This document shows positions 38,899-48,034 of a stretch of 64,000 nucleotides of DNA, one piece after another (the first letter of the stretch is position 1; each line of letters begins with the position of its first letter). The stretch spans positions 78,508 through 142,507 of the forward strand of contig JAQTLX010000009.1 in the NCBI GenBank assembly GCA_028714695.1, in the 5' to 3' direction. Under the pieces are notes generated by a model. It saw nothing but the letters and a program-made list of their open reading frames with translations, had not been told where the DNA came from and did no database searches. This DNA comes from Ignavibacteria bacterium. Lineage in GTDB: Bacteria; Bacteroidota; Ignavibacteria; Tepidaquicellales; Tepidaquicellaceae. The translations under genes were made by a program, and so were the position numbers.

Positions 38899-40362
38899 AT
38901 GAGGCTTACAGTAAATAGAAAGAAAGACAGAATTTATCCTGATTCAAAAAGAGTTATAACACGATTCTTCGATCATGGTGAAATTAAAGCAAAGTCCATC
39001 GTGACAAAAATTCTTGATATGAGCGAGATTGAAGCGGATAACTCTCTCAATCAGGTGCTTAGAGAATTTTCCAAACGCCACAGAAATATCACTCAGATTT
39101 TCCTTACCAATTATGCTAAAACATATCATCATTTAAGCAGGATAATAGGGAATCAGGAAATTTCATTCACAAAGAAATTATTGATAGGCTCGTATTTCAC
39201 AATGGAATATTCAATCGAATCTGCGGCGCTGTTTAATCCTTCTGTCGTGGAACATCCAGACCAGACAGGGCTTGAAGCGGGTCAAAAAAGAATCATATTA
39301 AGTTTCAGGGGAACAGGCGAAAGCCATATCTCTTCAATCGTATTCAGAAGCGGAATTATAGATAAGGATCACAATATAATACTTGACCATCAGGGAAATT
39401 ATGTGAGCGAAGCGGAAATAATAAAAGGGTATGAGTACAATAAAAAAGAATTTCAAAACATTTTATTGGAACACGGAATTTCAGACGGCATTTCAATTAC
39501 AATCCTTGATAAATTATCAGACACATTTTTTTATACCGGACTGAAAGAGTCCATTCAAAAAGAACAGGATACAAAAAAACTGAATCTCGATCAGAAAAAA
39601 ACTTTGAAAGAAATGATGTGGCTCGCGAAATCGCATTACGAAGTAGTGTTTTCCCTCGATACCGATATTTCCGAAAGAGTGCTGTTTCCCGTTTCAAGAA
39701 CGGAAAGCAACGGAATCGAAGACGCGAGATTCGTACGGTTTCAAGAAGAAAACGGCGAATCCGCTTATTATGCAACATATACGGCATACGACGGATATAC
39801 AATTCTTCCGAAACTTCTCGAAACAAAAGATTTTTATCATTTTAAAAACCTGCCTCTGCATGGTGAGTGCATGCGGGATAAAAATTTTGCTTTATTCCCG
39901 CGGAAGATAAACGGAAAATATGCAATGCTTTCAAGAATTGACGGCCTAAATCAGTATATAATGTTTTCCGATAATGTAACAGTCTGGGAAACCGCTGAAT
40001 TGCTATGGGAACCCAAATACACCTGGGAACTGATACAGGTCGGCAATTGCGGCTCGCCGATTGAAACCGATGACGGGTGGATTGTTATCTCTCACGGAGT
40101 AGGTCAAATGCGAAAATACTGTATAGGCGCTTTGCTGCTCGACCTGAACGACCCGACGAGAGTTATCGGAAGTCTTAAAGAGCCTCTAATTGTTCCCAAT
40201 GAAGACGAACGGGAAGGATATGTGCCGAACGTTGTTTATTCCTGCGGTTCAATAATTCATAACGGCGAATTGATTATTCCTTACGCTATTTCCGATTACG
40301 CATCGTCTTTCGCGACAGTAAACGTGAAAACTCTCATAAGCAAACTGATCGAAAAAGATTAA
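38899..40362 (+). CDS. GH130-family glycoside phosphorylase/hydrolase, long form
   Basis: A 487-residue protein. The five-bladed propeller of GH130 occupies about residues 185-480, with NGIEDARFVRFQ (the catalytic Asp region), MLSRIDGLNQYIMFSD, GNCGSPIETDDGWIVISHG and a closing VPNVVYSCGS. The N-terminal 180 residues are an extra helical domain seen in long GH130 members. GH130 enzymes phosphorolyse beta-mannosides. It is convergent (3 nt apart) with a cluster holding a second GH130 and two GT4 proteins, suggesting synthesis or turnover of a mannose-type glycan. Confidence 0.85.
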   Translation: MRLTVNRKKDRIYPDSKRVITRFFDHGEIKAKSIVTKILDMSEIEADNSLNQVLREFSKRHRNITQIFLTNYAKTYHHLSRIIGNQEISFTKKLLIGSYFTMEYSIESAALFNPSVVEHPDQTGLEAGQKRIILSFRGTGESHISSIVFRSGIIDKDHNIILDHQGNYVSEAEIIKGYEYNKKEFQNILLEHGISDGISITILDKLSDTFFYTGLKESIQKEQDTKKLNLDQKKTLKEMMWLAKSHYEVVFSLDTDISERVLFPVSRTESNGIEDARFVRFQEENGESAYYATYTAYDGYTILPKLLETKDFYHFKNLPLHGECMRDKNFALFPRKINGKYAMLSRIDGLNQYIMFSDNVTVWETAELLWEPKYTWELIQVGNCGSPIETDDGWIVISHGVGQMRKYCIGALLLDLNDPTRVIGSLKEPLIVPNEDEREGYVPNVVYSCGSIIHNGELIIPYAISDYASSFATVNVKTLISKLIEKD

Positions 40363-40365
40363 ATA

Positions 40366-41376
40366 TCACTCCGATAAAATTCTGTTATAAATTCGGATGT
40401 ATTCATCAGCCATTTTAGCGCGTGTAAATTTATTCTCTGCCAGTTCACGGCAGTCTTTTCTGTTCAGGTCTTTAATCTTCTTAACCGCTTCAACTGCTTC
40501 GTCCATTTCCGCGACGAGAAATCCCGTCTTATCGTTTATTATAAGTTCCGGCATAGACCCTCGTTCAAATGCTATAACAGGTGTTCCGCAAAAATATGAT
40601 TCGACTATGCTCAGACCGAAAGGTTCTTCAAAACTGACGGGATGAAGCAGCGCAAAAGCGCCTCCGAGAAGTTCATCGCGCTTTTCCGGTCCGGAATTAC
40701 CGGCATAAATAATATTTTTGTTATCAATGTACGGCTTTATTTTTTCCTCAAAATATTTTTCATCCTGTATAAGTCCGGAAATTATTAACTTCATGCCGGC
40801 TGACTTTGCAATCATGATAGATTCATAAGTTCCTTTTTCGGGATGTATGCGTCCGAAAAATAAAAGATAATCTCCCGGCTTCTCTTTAAATGTAAATTCA
40901 TTTTCATTAATACCGTTGTATACCGTTGCAATATATTTTAATTCCGGGCTTCTGTCGGAATTGCTTATCGAAACGTAATAATTTGTATCGTTATATTTTT
41001 TATAAACAGGAATAATCTTGGGCGATGAAAATCCGTGAATTGTAGTGACCATAGGAGTCTTAATAAGATTCGAATATGTCAGAGGGAGAAAATCGTAGTT
41101 GTTGTGAATGATATCGAATCGCGATGCCTTTTCCATGAGATTGCTTATATGCAGGCATTCACAAACCTTCGAATCGAAATCCGGATTTTCACCGTACGGT
41201 TTTTCAATGACATAATCGAGTTTCCCGTTTGTGATAGAGTCGCCTGTTGCAAACAGCGTTACGTCAATTCCCTTCTCCGCAAGTCCTTCCGCTATGTTCG
41301 ATGAAACCTGTTCCCATGGACCGTATTTTTTGGGCGGAGTTCTCCATACGGCGGGTGCTAATACTGCCGCTTTCAT
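40366..41376 (-). CDS. GT4-family glycosyltransferase
   Basis: A 336-residue GT-B enzyme. The N-terminal half has WRTPPKKYGPWEQVSSNIAEGL and HNNYDFLPL; the C-terminal half has LFFGRIHPEKGTYESI and the nucleotide-sugar site FEEPFGLSIVESYFCGTPV. It retains a retaining-GT Glu pair (EPFGLSIVE). It overlaps the GH130 stop by 4 nt and is the last gene of the 44555-40366 operon. Donor and acceptor unknown. Confidence 0.9.
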   Translation of the reverse strand: MKAAVLAPAVWRTPPKKYGPWEQVSSNIAEGLAEKGIDVTLFATGDSITNGKLDYVIEKPYGENPDFDSKVCECLHISNLMEKASRFDIIHNNYDFLPLTYSNLIKTPMVTTIHGFSSPKIIPVYKKYNDTNYYVSISNSDRSPELKYIATVYNGINENEFTFKEKPGDYLLFFGRIHPEKGTYESIMIAKSAGMKLIISGLIQDEKYFEEKIKPYIDNKNIIYAGNSGPEKRDELLGGAFALLHPVSFEEPFGLSIVESYFCGTPVIAFERGSMPELIINDKTGFLVAEMDEAVEAVKKIKDLNRKDCRELAENKFTRAKMADEYIRIYNRILSE

Positions 41377-42302
41377 AATGCACTGCGTGATTTATTCAAG
41401 CAGCACGAAACAAGTTCGTCCAGAACAGCCTCGCCTGCACACATAACTTTGTCCGCGCCCCCCCAGTATATTTTTACCGTTCCGTCAGGCTCAGGTATAG
41501 CGCCGCATGTAAACACAACGTTGTGTACATAACCCGTTATTTCATATTCTTCTTCAGGCTGAAGAATCCATTCATCATAAACACCCAGCATTTTTGATGG
41601 ATCTTTCAGGTCATGCAAAGCAGCCCCCAGCCTGTAAACGCTTCCGTCCATTGTTTGAAATACTCCGTGATAAATACTCAGCCAGCCGCTGCTCGTCTTT
41701 ATCGGCGGCGCTCCGGGACCAATTTTCATTTCATCCCAGTGATATTTTACCGGACGCATAACAACTTTAGAATCACCCCAGTACTTTAAATCCTTTGAGT
41801 ACGATATCCAGATTGACCATGGAGTAATTTCGGAATGAGGCCGGTCGAGCCTTGCATAAAGACCGTTAATTCTTTCGGGAAAAATTACAACGTTGCGGTA
41901 ATCGGCTTCAGTAATCAGCGAAAATCTTTCGATGGATTTGAAATCGCGTGTTTTGGCAAGACCAATACGAACGCCGTATCTTGAATAAGCGCTGTATGTT
42001 ATAAGATATTCGCCTTCAATAAAGGTTATTCGCGGGTCTTCAACGCCGTATTCTTCATATAATTTAAAATCACCTTCTTCGGATGGAATCATGAACGGCT
42101 CCGGATTTACTTTGAAATTATATCCGTCGGTGCTTTCTGCAAGCCCTATGATGCTTCGTCCGTTTAAAAGATGCGAACGAAAGAGCAATAAATATTTGCC
42201 GCCGTATTTTACCGCTCCGGCATTATGAACCGTTGCAACTTTGTACGGAACATCGTCTTTTGTAAGTATGGGATTTTCGGGATATCGTTTTATTATTGAC
42301 AC
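41373..42302 (-). CDS. GH130-family beta-mannoside phosphorylase-like protein, short form
   Basis: A 309-residue single propeller. The signature EEYGVEDPRITFIEGEYL carries the proton-donor Asp; GPGAPPIKTSSGWLSIYHG and GYVHNVVFTCG are further family motifs. It lacks the N-terminal helical domain of the GH130 at 38899. It lies between two GT4 genes with tight spacing (12 nt upstream, 4-nt overlap downstream). Confidence 0.9.
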   Translation of the reverse strand: MSIIKRYPENPILTKDDVPYKVATVHNAGAVKYGGKYLLLFRSHLLNGRSIIGLAESTDGYNFKVNPEPFMIPSEEGDFKLYEEYGVEDPRITFIEGEYLITYSAYSRYGVRIGLAKTRDFKSIERFSLITEADYRNVVIFPERINGLYARLDRPHSEITPWSIWISYSKDLKYWGDSKVVMRPVKYHWDEMKIGPGAPPIKTSSGWLSIYHGVFQTMDGSVYRLGAALHDLKDPSKMLGVYDEWILQPEEEYEITGYVHNVVFTCGAIPEPDGTVKIYWGGADKVMCAGEAVLDELVSCCLNKSRSAL

Positions 42303-42314
42303 GCTTGTTTAATT

Positions 42315-44555
42315 TTATTTTTCATATTCATATTCGAGTTCGAATGCGCCGAGTACGGTAAGGTGTGACATCAGATATGACAGCGTGCTTTCCGCTCCCT
42401 GATTTCTGTTAAGCCCGTAATCTTCGAGTCCGTCATTACATCCTCCTGTTTCAAAATCATAAACGGGAAGACTCAAAACGTTCTTTCCTAAAAACCACAT
42501 GTAGGACGTGAACATTTTGTCAAGATAACTTTTGTCTTTTGTTATGCTGTATGCTTTTGAAAAAAGAAGAACCATTCCCATTACATCGATAGACTGTTGT
42601 GCAAATTCAGCGCACTTGCCCCCCTTCCGATACCAGCCTTTGCTTCCGACAGGCTTCAAAAAACCGCTGCTCATTGTTACGCTTTCGAGAAATGCCGTAG
42701 ATTCGATGGCGATTTTCAGAATCCTGTCTTCGTTGAAAACTTCCGCGGCGTGAAACATAGCAAGCGGAATTATGGCATTATCATATGTCAGAATATCTTT
42801 AAACCATTTCCATTCATCCGATTTCTCTTTGTCGTACATTGCCGCCAGTTTGTCGGTAAGTTCATACATCAGGGATTCCGTTTTAGAATCCGCAACAAAG
42901 TGTTTTAGATAATAAGATAAACCTATTATTGAGTTGGCAATTCCCCGCATGTGCTTAAGTTGCCCGAAGACAGGCATGGAATTGGAAAAAATATCCAGAC
43001 TGAGTTGATGGTACGAGTCAACCGGAAAATTACAGATTAAGTATCCCAGCGCCCAGATTGTTCTTCCAAAACAATCTTCGGACCCGACTTCGTCAAGATA
43101 ACTTCTGTTGAAACTTAAAAAATTTCTGAATGTACCGTCATCGTTTTGCATATAATGTATATAACTCAAATAAACAGGCATCAAATTGAGTGACTCGGGA
43201 ATTTTGTTTTTATGATATGCCATCGCAGTCATTAGAAGTGCTCTTGAATTATCATCCGTGCAATACCCTTCTTTTAAATTCGGAATTCCGTACTTCGCGT
43301 GCTGCACAATACCCGTATCATCAGTTAATTTAATAACGTGTGAGAGTGTAAAATCCGGTAGAAGGTACGGGTCGAGAGTTGTTTGCTTTATCTTCGGTAC
43401 ATAAGAGAATGTTAGTATTGCGGATTCTGCCGTTTTTATATATTTACCGCCAATCTTAGGCCATTTCAGTTTTTGACCGTATTCAAAGGCCGTCTCGCGC
43501 AGTAGTTCTATTTTATCTTTGTTGTCGAGAAGGTCCAGAAGAATGTTTCCGAGTTGTATGTGATTATGAAAATCAAACAGCATCCCCCTGCCGTCCGCAA
43601 GCAGTTCCTGCGCATGCCAGTAAGGAGTGGAAATTACTGCAGTGCCTGCGCCGATTGCATACGATAACGTACCGCTTGTTATCTGCGCTTCGTTCAGATA
43701 TGGTGTTATATAAATGTCGGTCGCGTATAAATATTCCATCAGCAATTCTTCGGGAACGAAATTCTTATAGAAGTAAACATAATTTTCAAGTCCGTTTTCT
43801 TTTACAAGCCTCAGAAGATATTCCCTGTATTCTTCTCCGTTCTTTGTGATGACCTTCGGATGCGTATTTCCGAGCACTACATAAAGAATGTCCTTGTGTT
43901 TCTCGACCACACGCGGCAATGCTTTTATTACCGTTTCAATGCCTTTGTTTCTGCTTAATAAGCCGAAAGTAAATAATGCTGTCTTATCATTGAAATTGAA
44001 TTTTTCGCGGACTGTCTCCCTGTGAAAAACCTTGCTGACAGGTACTCCGTGTTCAATGATTTCGATTTTTTCCTCGGGTATATTGTATATTTCAAGAAGA
44101 AATTTTACCGCTTTCTTGCTCATCACAATAACCTTGTAGGCTTTTTTGCTTAGTTCCTGAACAATCATTTTTTGTATATGTGACGGCTCCTTTATCACGG
44201 TATGAAAAGTAACAATCAGCGGAATTTTAAGCCGGCTGACAAGCGAAAGTATATAAACTCCGCTTTCACCTCCGAATATTCCGAACTCATGCTGCAGAAT
44301 ACATACATCCGCTTTGTTGTAATTTATATATTTGGCGGCGCTGACATAATCTCTTTGAATGTTTTGTTTTACAACGAAAGCAACTTCAGCCGGAAAATTG
44401 TATCCCTGTTCGGAATCACTGACGGCGACTATATAGAGATTTGGAAATAAACTTGTATATCCGAAATTATCCGCAATTGATTTAACTAAATTATAAGTAA
44501 AAGTTCCAATTCCGCATTTTTGCGGCGGATAAGTTCCTATAAAGGCGAGTTTCAT
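42315..44555 (-). CDS. GT4 glycosyltransferase fused to a C-terminal helical glycosidase-like domain
   Basis: A 746-residue two-part protein. Residues 1 to about 390 are a GT4 GT-B enzyme (FIGTYPPQKCGIGTFTYNL, FGLLSRNKGIETVIKALPRV, GAGTAVISTPYWHAQE). From about residue 405, starting DDTGIVQHAKYGIPNLKEG, the rest is helical with repeated aromatic/Gly segments (CTDDNSRALLMTAMAYH, NQGAESTLSYLMSHL) resembling an alpha/alpha toroid of glycosidases. Transfer and trimming of one glycan by a single polypeptide is plausible but inferred. It is the first gene of the operon with GH130 and GT4. Confidence 0.82.
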   Translation of the reverse strand: MKLAFIGTYPPQKCGIGTFTYNLVKSIADNFGYTSLFPNLYIVAVSDSEQGYNFPAEVAFVVKQNIQRDYVSAAKYINYNKADVCILQHEFGIFGGESGVYILSLVSRLKIPLIVTFHTVIKEPSHIQKMIVQELSKKAYKVIVMSKKAVKFLLEIYNIPEEKIEIIEHGVPVSKVFHRETVREKFNFNDKTALFTFGLLSRNKGIETVIKALPRVVEKHKDILYVVLGNTHPKVITKNGEEYREYLLRLVKENGLENYVYFYKNFVPEELLMEYLYATDIYITPYLNEAQITSGTLSYAIGAGTAVISTPYWHAQELLADGRGMLFDFHNHIQLGNILLDLLDNKDKIELLRETAFEYGQKLKWPKIGGKYIKTAESAILTFSYVPKIKQTTLDPYLLPDFTLSHVIKLTDDTGIVQHAKYGIPNLKEGYCTDDNSRALLMTAMAYHKNKIPESLNLMPVYLSYIHYMQNDDGTFRNFLSFNRSYLDEVGSEDCFGRTIWALGYLICNFPVDSYHQLSLDIFSNSMPVFGQLKHMRGIANSIIGLSYYLKHFVADSKTESLMYELTDKLAAMYDKEKSDEWKWFKDILTYDNAIIPLAMFHAAEVFNEDRILKIAIESTAFLESVTMSSGFLKPVGSKGWYRKGGKCAEFAQQSIDVMGMVLLFSKAYSITKDKSYLDKMFTSYMWFLGKNVLSLPVYDFETGGCNDGLEDYGLNRNQGAESTLSYLMSHLTVLGAFELEYEYEK

Positions 44556-44786: not shown

Positions 44787-45806
44787 TTAATAATGCGTCG
44801 TTGCGTCCCAGACAACTTTTTTCTTTGTCTTGTGGTAAACGCTTACCGACCTTATAATTGCGAAGAAATTTATAAATGAATCAATTGCCAGTCTGAATAT
44901 GCTTGCAAGAGCATAACTAAACCCGTACCAGTTATAGGTAAATATGAATCTGTGCACGCTCTTGGAAATCATGAATACCAGATTAAATATCATCAGGAAC
45001 CACAAAGGTTCCGGTATTTTTCCGCTGATTAGAGAGTTATCTATATTGAAGGCAGTACCGATTGCCAGATAAATAAAATAAAGTAGTATGACATTGGATA
45101 AAAAAGTTGACCAGAAACTGATTATCGGTTTTCTGTCTCTGAAGAGAAAATATTTTGTTCTCAGGTTTCCGTTCCATTTGTGTGCCTTCCAGTTTTGAAA
45201 GCAAATCCCCGCTATCCACCTTGAACGCTGTTTAACGGCCGGCCAAAATTTATTCGGAAAAAATTCCGCGGTTGAAACGCGTGTTGAGTTTTTGTCGCCG
45301 TCGAGTTTAACGTTAAAGAATCCCGATTTCAACCCTAACTGATAGAATCTCAGACCAAGTTCATAATCTTCGGTCAAGTTCACATCATTAAAAATTCCTT
45401 CGCGTTTTTCTTCGGGACGGATTGTGACAGGCTCTGCCTCCAATGTATCAAGACTTAGTATCGCTTGTCCGTTTGAAACAGTTTCAGTATTCGGTGAAGT
45501 GTTCTGCTTGCCGTTTAGTTTGTTTGTTAATTCCTGTATAATCGCCTTAGCCCGCTTCAGTTCGTCTTTCAGTATGCTTTCCTCATATGCCTGAACCAAT
45601 ATACCCGCTTCTTTTCTCCCGTCATCTTCGAGTTCTTTATCAAAGATTTCTATAAGTTTTCTGTAAAGCCCGCTGTTTGTTACTGCATCGAGCGGAATGA
45701 AGTTTTCGGATAGTTTGCTGACTTCAGGTCTGCCGTTCAGAATATTTTCTTCTGAATTATCCGTATCGTTTTTATATTTTGTTGTTTGTTGATTCTTATT
45801 TTTCAT
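44787..45806 (-). CDS. NfrB-like GT2, C-terminal catalytic and membrane half
   Basis: 339 residues. The first ~135 are low-complexity and coiled-coil (KELEDDGRKEAGILVQAYEE). At 140 the second half of a processive GT2 core begins: FNDVNLTEDYELGLRF (TED at 145-147), AVKQRSRWIAGICFQNWKAH (QxxRW at 193-197), then about three membrane helices and the end WDATTHY. In E. coli NfrB these motifs follow directly on the DxD part in one chain and WDxTTH leads into a c-di-GMP-binding MshEN domain, absent here. The DxD part is encoded by the gene 43 nt upstream. Confidence 0.78.
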   Translation of the reverse strand: MKNKNQQTTKYKNDTDNSEENILNGRPEVSKLSENFIPLDAVTNSGLYRKLIEIFDKELEDDGRKEAGILVQAYEESILKDELKRAKAIIQELTNKLNGKQNTSPNTETVSNGQAILSLDTLEAEPVTIRPEEKREGIFNDVNLTEDYELGLRFYQLGLKSGFFNVKLDGDKNSTRVSTAEFFPNKFWPAVKQRSRWIAGICFQNWKAHKWNGNLRTKYFLFRDRKPIISFWSTFLSNVILLYFIYLAIGTAFNIDNSLISGKIPEPLWFLMIFNLVFMISKSVHRFIFTYNWYGFSYALASIFRLAIDSFINFFAIIRSVSVYHKTKKKVVWDATTHY

Positions 45807-45849
45807 TGATTTTTATTTGTTCGTACATCTTTGATATTAACATAAAAGT

Positions 45850-47175
45850 CTAATATTTGAAAAGTTGCTTTTTATCCCCTATGAAATGTTTGTTGCCGGA
45901 TTGATATGTCTTGCTCTGCAATCTATTGTGGCTGATTGTATTCTTACTTTTTGTATTTGGTGTATTTTCTGTATCCGGCATATTTTCGGTATTTTTTGTA
46001 TTCAATGCATTCTTGTTCACTGTGTTTTCGGATTTTTTATCCGAAACTACAGATGTATCGTTTGCATTAAGCATATTTGATATGTATTCCTGATTTGTTT
46101 CGTCAATAATTTTATCTTCCGTAGATTTGACCGAATCATTAAATGTAGGAGACAGCGGAAGAGAACTTCCCGCATAAACAAATAAACCGGCACAAGAAAA
46201 TATTGCAAGCAAGAATGCAGCCGTGTAACTTATTATTGCCCTTTTGTTTGTTCTTGTGAACATCGAAGGCTTGTGTTTCAAACTCTCAAACGGATTTTCT
46301 TTGTAAGAAGTGTTATTGAAATATTCTGGCAAAGGTTCTTTTACTTCGTCGTTGTTGAAATATTTCTGATTTATTTCCACCGTTCTGCCGAACGGATCCA
46401 GATATACATGTCTTTCAGCACTTGCTGCTGTTTCAAGTGCAGGCAGATGCTCGAAATTGTATTTCTCGATGCAGTACATGGATTTTCTGTGAAAACCCAT
46501 TCCCGTTCCCGAGAAAGGAAGAAAAGTTTTCATTTCCTGCCTGATAATCATGTCCTTTGTGTGCGTCTCCGCAAATGCATCACAGTAAGTTCTGTGAATC
46601 ATGTTTCCCAGATTGCTCTTAATCGGTACTACGGGAATCTGTATTCCGTGATATCCTTTGTAACCTATGAGAAAATTATACAATTTCAAAGAACGCGGAT
46701 GTATGAAATCCTCCGCATCGTGAACAAGCAGTATCTCAAACTCGCCGAATTGTTTTTCGAAATCACAAATTGCTGCGTAAATGCAGTTAAGGTTGTCTGC
46801 TTTGGTCGAAGGACCGGGCTGAGGATTAACCACCATCTTCACCCTTCTGTCCGACTGGGAAATTTTGCTGACAACATCAATTGTTTTCTGGTCGTTTGGA
46901 TAAACGCCGACAAACAATCTGTAATTTTTGTATCTTAAATTTCTGACGGCAAAACTTAAAGTTCTGCCTATAACGCCCGATTCATTCCATGCTCCGAGTA
47001 TAATGGCAATTGGTTTTTCTTCTTTGTCATACATCTCCGAAAAATCGGGTAACTTGGATTTATGCTTATGCCTTAATACCCAGTACATTAAATCTACGTA
47101 CAGGTCATCCAGTCCGCTTATTGTCAACATTATTGTTGTTATCCATATTAATATCTGGACTATTTCAAATATCAT
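45850..47175 (-). CDS. NfrB-like GT2, N-terminal catalytic half with membrane tail
   Basis: 441 residues. Membrane helix 1 (5-20) is followed by GLDDLYVDLMYW, ILGAWNESGVIGRTL, STKADNLN and the metal-binding HDAED (152-156), then GTGMGFHRKSM (223-233). This is the first half of an NfrB-type glycosyltransferase. In place of the TED/QxxRW half comes a linker, a membrane helix (313-336) and a 105-residue Asn/Thr/Lys-rich tail that should be periplasmic. The missing half is encoded by the next gene in another frame. The two proteins probably form one active site. A receiver-domain gene lies upstream. Confidence 0.78.
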   Translation of the reverse strand: MIFEIVQILIWITTIMLTISGLDDLYVDLMYWVLRHKHKSKLPDFSEMYDKEEKPIAIILGAWNESGVIGRTLSFAVRNLRYKNYRLFVGVYPNDQKTIDVVSKISQSDRRVKMVVNPQPGPSTKADNLNCIYAAICDFEKQFGEFEILLVHDAEDFIHPRSLKLYNFLIGYKGYHGIQIPVVPIKSNLGNMIHRTYCDAFAETHTKDMIIRQEMKTFLPFSGTGMGFHRKSMYCIEKYNFEHLPALETAASAERHVYLDPFGRTVEINQKYFNNDEVKEPLPEYFNNTSYKENPFESLKHKPSMFTRTNKRAIISYTAAFLLAIFSCAGLFVYAGSSLPLSPTFNDSVKSTEDKIIDETNQEYISNMLNANDTSVVSDKKSENTVNKNALNTKNTENMPDTENTPNTKSKNTISHNRLQSKTYQSGNKHFIGDKKQLFKY

Positions 47176-47641: not shown

Positions 47642-48034
47642 TTAAAAATTCACCGTACTGTTTTGATTAATCATACCGTTTATCAGAGCATCGTTAATCA
47701 TGTCGTTTAATTTGTGTATATCCAGCGGTTTTTGTAAGTATCCGAAAGAACACCTGTCGAGGAATTTATTATCATTATCGTCGAACGATGATATCAGAAT
47801 TATCGGAATGTTGTATCTGAGTCCTTTCATTATATATGAAAACTCGATTCCGTTCAGACCAGACATTCTTATGTCGCTTATAATTAAATCGGGATTCAGA
47901 TTTTTTACAATCTCCAAACCGGCTATTCCGTTTTTTGCGGTAAAGACCTTATAGCCCGATTCTTCTAGGTAAGACGATATTGATTCCAATGTTGATTCGT
48001 CATCATCTATCAAAAGTATTTTTTTCGTATCCAT
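47642..48034 (-). CDS. Stand-alone response-regulator receiver domain
   Basis: A 130-residue CheY-like protein: acidic pocket IDDDE (10-13), phospho-acceptor Asp54 in DLIISDIRMSG, switch Ser82 in ILISSFDD and Lys102 in YLQKPLD. There is no output domain, so it must act by protein contact. It is flanked by the split glycosyltransferase and by two microprotein genes on the same strand; a role in controlling glycan synthesis is a guess from position. No sensor kinase is present in the window. Confidence 0.92.
   Translation of the reverse strand: MDTKKILLIDDDESTLESISSYLEESGYKVFTAKNGIAGLEIVKNLNPDLIISDIRMSGLNGIEFSYIMKGLRYNIPIILISSFDDNDNKFLDRCSFGYLQKPLDIHKLNDMINDALINGMINQNSTVNF

Follow-up and report, generated by a model that had tools for sequence, protein, structure and literature searches.

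The window, a stretch of 64,000 nucleotides of an Ignavibacteria contig, carries two neighbouring genes, A and B, whose products are, with high probability, obligate subunits of one NfrB-type membrane glycosyltransferase. Judging from the sequences and from a structural model, it is very likely that the two chains form one active site. The split of the synthase into two genes is real, conserved in relatives and derived from a single-chain form. The features of the pair and of its upstream neighbour are as follows, in the order of transcription.

47642..48034, minus strand: lone receiver domain, upstream of A
45850..47175, minus strand: gene A, 441 aa, N-terminal half of an NfrB-type GT2 synthase
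46708..46722, minus strand: HDAED, the DxD-type motif of A, aa 152-156
46492..46509, minus strand: GTGMGF of A, aa 223-228
46180..46236, minus strand: extra TM helix of A by hydropathy, aa 314-332, with a K/R-rich N side
45853..46179, minus strand: tail of A, about 109 residues, at the site of a SPOR domain in relatives
45807..45849, minus strand: gap of 43 nt between A and B, which lie in different frames
44787..45806, minus strand: gene B, 339 aa, C-terminal half with its own N-terminal helical region
45396..45806, minus strand: fast-evolving N-terminal region of B, aa 1-137
45366..45374, minus strand: TED motif of B, aa 145-147
45216..45230, minus strand: QRSRW (QxxRW) motif of B, aa 193-197
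44853..45104, minus strand: C-terminal membrane helices of B by hydropathy, also helices in the model of a close relative

Protein A consists of TM1, the nucleotide-sugar-binding part of a GT-A fold with the DxD motif, a linker, the extra TM helix and the tail. Residues H152, D153, E155 and D156 are invariant across the 16 A proteins compared, and homology to the single-chain relatives stops a few residues past GTGMGF. The first-pass annotation had described A as a DxD half with an added helix and a periplasmic-like tail, and this description holds: the helix at aa 314-332 is flanked by five K/R residues on its N side and by none on its C side, because of which the tail is predicted to be periplasmic. 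When a close relative was modelled, helix 307-339 corresponded to the extra TM helix, and the N-terminal region of B was likewise helical. GT4-type transferases and two GH130-family genes (window 38899-44555) adjoin the pair and are partly conserved in one other genome (G001, locus L002).

The claim that one NfrB-type catalytic core extends over two genes is supported by profile searches, in which A and B align to neighbouring segments of shared models. Positions 3-230 of NF011305 (NCBIfam) are matched by A (E 4.5e-68) and positions 237-453 by B (E 2e-38), while in NF008411, the NfrB equivalog, A covers positions 9-243 and B positions 248-470, with scores of 195.1 and 125.8 bits, respectively, that are below the curated cut-off of 1170 bits. 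Such non-overlapping, adjacent matches to the same NCBIfam models are far beyond chance, and Pfam also places A and B on adjacent, non-overlapping stretches of the same GT2 models. All core motifs of the NfrB GT2 domain, DxD, TED and QxxRW, are present and divided over the two proteins. Pfam profile searches gave no match to SPOR in the window's A and none to DUF772 in its B; MshEN, whose absence had been noted in the first-pass annotation, was matched by neither protein in Pfam and NCBIfam searches.

This division of motifs makes it hardly credible that either protein is active by itself or in combination with a different partner. Nothing favours such an idea beyond the fact that they are separate polypeptides, and against it stand the lack of TED and QxxRW in A, the lack of the nucleotide-binding half and DxD in B, and the joint occurrence of the copies, namely two A with two B in the window's genome (G000) and one with one in G014.

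The search for orthologs in 44 genomes of the order found split genes in 14, a single chain in 17 and no ortholog in 13, the last including one genome (G020) with weak hits alone. All 14 split genomes, distributed over eight genera, belong to one family (f1), and the continuous gene was found in all 15 genomes examined from family f2, as well as in two of the three genomes of genus g16. A sample of the phylum gave matches to the single-chain query at E <= 1e-20 in five genomes out of 395; the two matches lying outside the order are single-chain. A and B stand side by side on one contig in 12 of the 14 split genomes and on separate contigs in the other two, which are draft assemblies (G009 and G021); another draft, G008, has unknown bases within B. 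In the 14 pairs measured, the gap between A and B is 6-60 nt, and B has its own ATG start.

The relation of the reading frames of A and B is 0 in five of these pairs, +1 in six and +2 in three, and because it varies among loci, a shared frameshift or read-through device does not operate here. Frameshift, read-through and assembly error are ruled out by the recurrence of the split in 14 out of 44 genomes in three frame relations; thus, the exclusion of a simple frameshift in the first-pass annotation was correct, and the same split, which it had proposed to look for in relatives, was found there. It had also regarded relatives with one continuous gene as an argument against the split. Such relatives do exist (17 out of 44 genomes), but they occupy a separate branch of the tree, which points to a derived split and does not speak for an error.

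The cores of the proteins are 81-97% identical in eight comparisons versus 33-77% for the A tail and B N-terminus. Where it could be computed, omega of the cores is 0.008-0.037, a range that is indicative only, because synonymous sites are saturated. It might be supposed that an ordinary single-chain synthase was interrupted here by a frameshift or a stop and that the window pair is what remains of it, a pseudogene in decay, since single-chain relatives exist and this copy is a paralog that has neither the operon context nor SPOR and DUF772. This is very improbable and is largely refuted by conservation: the two genes recur in about a third of the genomes of the order, their frame relation varies, a separate ATG precedes B, all motifs are retained, the cores remain 81-97% identical in spite of saturated synonymous sites, and the full-type pairs of relatives are found in a recurrent operon.

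In full-type pairs, additional domains are found at the break, and A ends with a C-terminal TM helix and a SPOR domain. SPOR (PF05036) was matched by 12 out of 12 full-type A tails (best 2.3e-9), and among four SPOR-bearing whole A proteins scanned, one was above the Pfam cut-off and three were just below it. The model of an A tail has the order of strands and helices characteristic of SPOR (beta-alpha-beta-beta-alpha), and its top match in VIA-align is the SPOR domain of RlpA (Z 8.0, 1.5 Å, 67 residues); in plain Foldseek, RlpA is 12th (E 0.076), and ACT-like and YbjN chains rank higher. In one genome (G006), the genes are split and DUF772 is present without TM-SPOR on A, so SPOR is dispensable for the split form.

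DUF772 (PF05598), a transposase domain, was found in six of the seven N-termini of relatives' B tested, at up to 3.6e-9 in a whole B protein, and is followed by a long linker. A profile constructed from B N-termini matched, outside the B genes, two transposase-like genes (5e-18 and 7e-13), which we take to be of the IS5 kind, and gave one weak match (L096). With the same profile, no DUF772-type matches were obtained in five genomes of genus g1 or in the single-chain genomes. The B protein of G006 (L066 5117-7888, 924 aa) is notable for the very long linker that joins DUF772 to its catalytic half and consists of charged repeats of helical appearance.

In single chains, the loop at the break site, before the TED half, has 5 residues in family f2 and 44 residues in genus g16, and this difference shows that the loop between GTGMxF and TED tolerates insertions. 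The longer loop of the g16 single chains (L018, L019 and L074) is located exactly where the split falls.

A tree of 23 rows was constructed from 15 split pairs and 8 of the 17 single-chain sequences. All single chains are on one side of one branch (support 85/84), so the support of the branch dividing single and split forms is moderate, and the tree is consistent with one split event. Five reduced pairs, including that of the window, form one clade with support of 100/100, and this clade is nested among the full-type pairs, from which it follows that the full type came first and that the pair of the window arose from it by reduction. This paralog is without SPOR and DUF772 and stands outside the porin/WecB operon.

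Gene context was studied in 14 full-type split, 5 reduced and 3 single-chain loci, several of which are cut by contig ends; two of the loci (L077 and L078) are halves of a single pair in G021, and from G001 and G002 the reduced pairs alone were fetched and their other pairs left out. An NfrA-like gene is located upstream in 12 of the 14 full-type loci (one partial) and in all three single-chain loci. WecB follows directly downstream in seven of the 14 and in two of the three, respectively, and in the third single-chain locus WecB is matched only in part, at a distance of about 6 kb. Neither the porin nor WecB was found near any of the five reduced loci, the window pair included. The NfrA-like gene is composed of TPR repeats, matching BcsC, PgaA and NfrA models, and, at the C-terminus, a conserved domain about 230 residues long, which is probably a beta-barrel. 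The number of its TPRs varies strongly (L064, L066-L070, L074-L077), from about 0-1 in single-chain relatives to several in split ones, with the same C-terminal domain.

The genome of the window contains a second pair of the full type (L064 4185-9949, on contig C2), in an operon of porin, A, B and wecB. SPOR is present on its A, there is no DUF772 match on its B, and its WecB scores 222.8 bits with TIGR00236 (cut-off 210.15). After wecB, at L064 9937-11979, there is a T9SS-sorted S15-type hydrolase, and similar T9SS-tailed genes are often found at the same position in other loci; this hydrolase may modify or trim the glycan. In Escherichia coli, according to excerpts of two reports (PMC8669469, PMC8669472), NfrB, NfrA and WecB make the glycan receptor of N4, and N4 infection requires residues D169, D267 and W330 of NfrB. 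The porin/WecB context of full-type pairs is the one expected of an exopolysaccharide system of the NGR/ManNAc type.

The reduced pair could be an ex-synthase that has kept the fold and now serves as a regulator or an exchange partner of the full-type pair. All five reduced pairs are without porin and WecB nearby, and each of the five genomes holding them also encodes one or more additional copies of A, whose frames are longer (465-511 aa), which would fit such a role. We consider it unlikely, since DxD, GTGMGF, TED and QxxRW are intact in the reduced pair and its cores are about as conserved as those of the full type. The reading of the reduced pair as two catalytic halves of a synthase is therefore preferred.

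The control of the window pair probably differs from that of NfrB. Neither MshEN nor GGDEF was matched in the window's whole genome (96% complete), and control genomes did give matches; on these grounds, c-di-GMP control appears to be absent altogether and not merely moved to another protein. The adjacent lone receiver had been suggested as a controller, but no receiver match was found in the flanks of the reduced pairs of four other genomes (L001/L072, L002, L003 and L071, with only about 1 kb upstream in L002). As a gene not conserved with the pair, it was rejected in this role.

In one pair (G003), A and B are in one frame with a stop and 6 nt between them, and because of the shared frame it was possible to model their read-through as a single polypeptide. 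The resulting model of 755 aa has a mean pLDDT of 61, with most core blocks at 70-93. In VIA-align, residues 8-741, covering both halves, match single-chain GT2 enzymes, namely PcManGT 6yv7 (Z 25.1, 337 residues, 3.8 Å), hyaluronan synthase 8sne (Z 21.2, 370 residues, 3.9 Å) and BcsA 9fmz (Z 20.3, 370 residues, 4.2 Å); the TM-scores of the same model in Foldseek are low. The match is supportive of the halves meeting, yet it is not independent evidence, because the chain is covalently fused and the folding alignment included four single-chain relatives and read-through rows, so that the meeting is partly built in. A phmmer search from a single-chain relative gave nothing meaningful among solved structures.

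Several known systems resemble A and B in part. The NGR synthase NfrB of E. coli, as it is presented in excerpts of PMC8669469 and PMC8669472, shares with the pair a GT2 core with DxD, TED and QxxRW, and its system, with an NfrA-type TPR/beta-barrel porin and WecB, a UDP-GlcNAc 2-epimerase, has counterparts of WecB and probably of the porin beside full-type pairs; unlike A and B, it is one chain with a C-terminal MshEN and c-di-GMP control. By sequence, the pair would work like NfrB, yet it lies outside the NfrB equivalog by its score, the absence of MshEN and its division into two chains. The short single-chain NfrB-like GT2 enzymes (NF011305, PRK14716-type) have the same core and also no MshEN, and a relative from family f2 matches NF011305 over positions 1-453 of 486; they differ from A and B in that their gene is uninterrupted and the split site is occupied by a loop of 5 residues.

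Glycosyltransferases of the Alg13/Alg14 and EpsE/EpsF kind have the GT-B fold. Like A and B, they are split by gene, with the active site between two polypeptides, but they are MurG-like and parted into N- and C-terminal domains, as far as excerpts of PMC8993221 describe them, whereas the cut between A and B lies inside the GT-A catalytic domain. Searches of open-licence papers brought up none that describes a GT-A synthase divided within its catalytic domain. SPOR after a single TM helix, as in full-type A, is also seen in FtsN-type proteins (excerpts of PMC9525312), and DUF772 at the protein start, as in relatives' B, is also seen in IS transposases; in contrast to both, in relatives of the window pair these domains are fused to the halves of a polysaccharide synthase.

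The explanation that A and B are two subunits of one enzyme can be set out as follows. A would be responsible for binding of the sugar nucleotide and would provide DxD, and B would contribute the catalytic base (TED), the QxxRW loop and the C-terminal membrane/channel helices. The two proteins would associate in the inner membrane, with the active site between them. Full-type pairs would polymerise a glycan, probably from UDP-ManNAc, and its exit would proceed via the NfrA-like TPR/beta-barrel porin. The split most likely occurred once, in part of family f1, within the insertion-tolerant GTGMxF-TED loop. At the break, B would have gained a transposase N-terminal domain and a helical linker, and A a TM helix and a periplasmic SPOR domain. 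By analogy with FtsN, as described in excerpts of PMC9525312, SPOR would tether the full-type synthase to denuded peptidoglycan, and the head of B, with DUF772 and its helices, may have a role in assembly. The window pair would be a paralog of later origin, in which the two catalytic halves were retained and SPOR, DUF772 and the porin/WecB context were lost.

As to the route of the split, we may tentatively suggest, as a possible but rather doubtful scenario, that an element of the IS5 kind landed in the catalytic domain of an NfrB-type synthase and founded an obligate two-subunit enzyme. The gene would have survived the insertion, with the start and the N-terminal domain of the transposase now heading its C-terminal half and with the TM helix and SPOR added to its N-terminal half. 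Both additions would act as modules of assembly and localisation; by them, exopolysaccharide synthesis would be directed to denuded peptidoglycan, in place of control by c-di-GMP.

Summarizing the significance of these data, a membrane synthase of the processive type has its GT-A fold cut between DxD and TED, and this state is maintained across eight genera of environmental bacteria. In such natural half-enzymes, it could be possible to turn active-site assembly on and off, and the cut offers a natural break point for testing the folding of processive synthases. The presence of transposase and SPOR pieces at the break suggests how a broken gene may give rise to a complex that has acquired new components. 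Finally, the NfrA/NfrB/WecB pathway would be extended to bacteria without detectable c-di-GMP enzymes.
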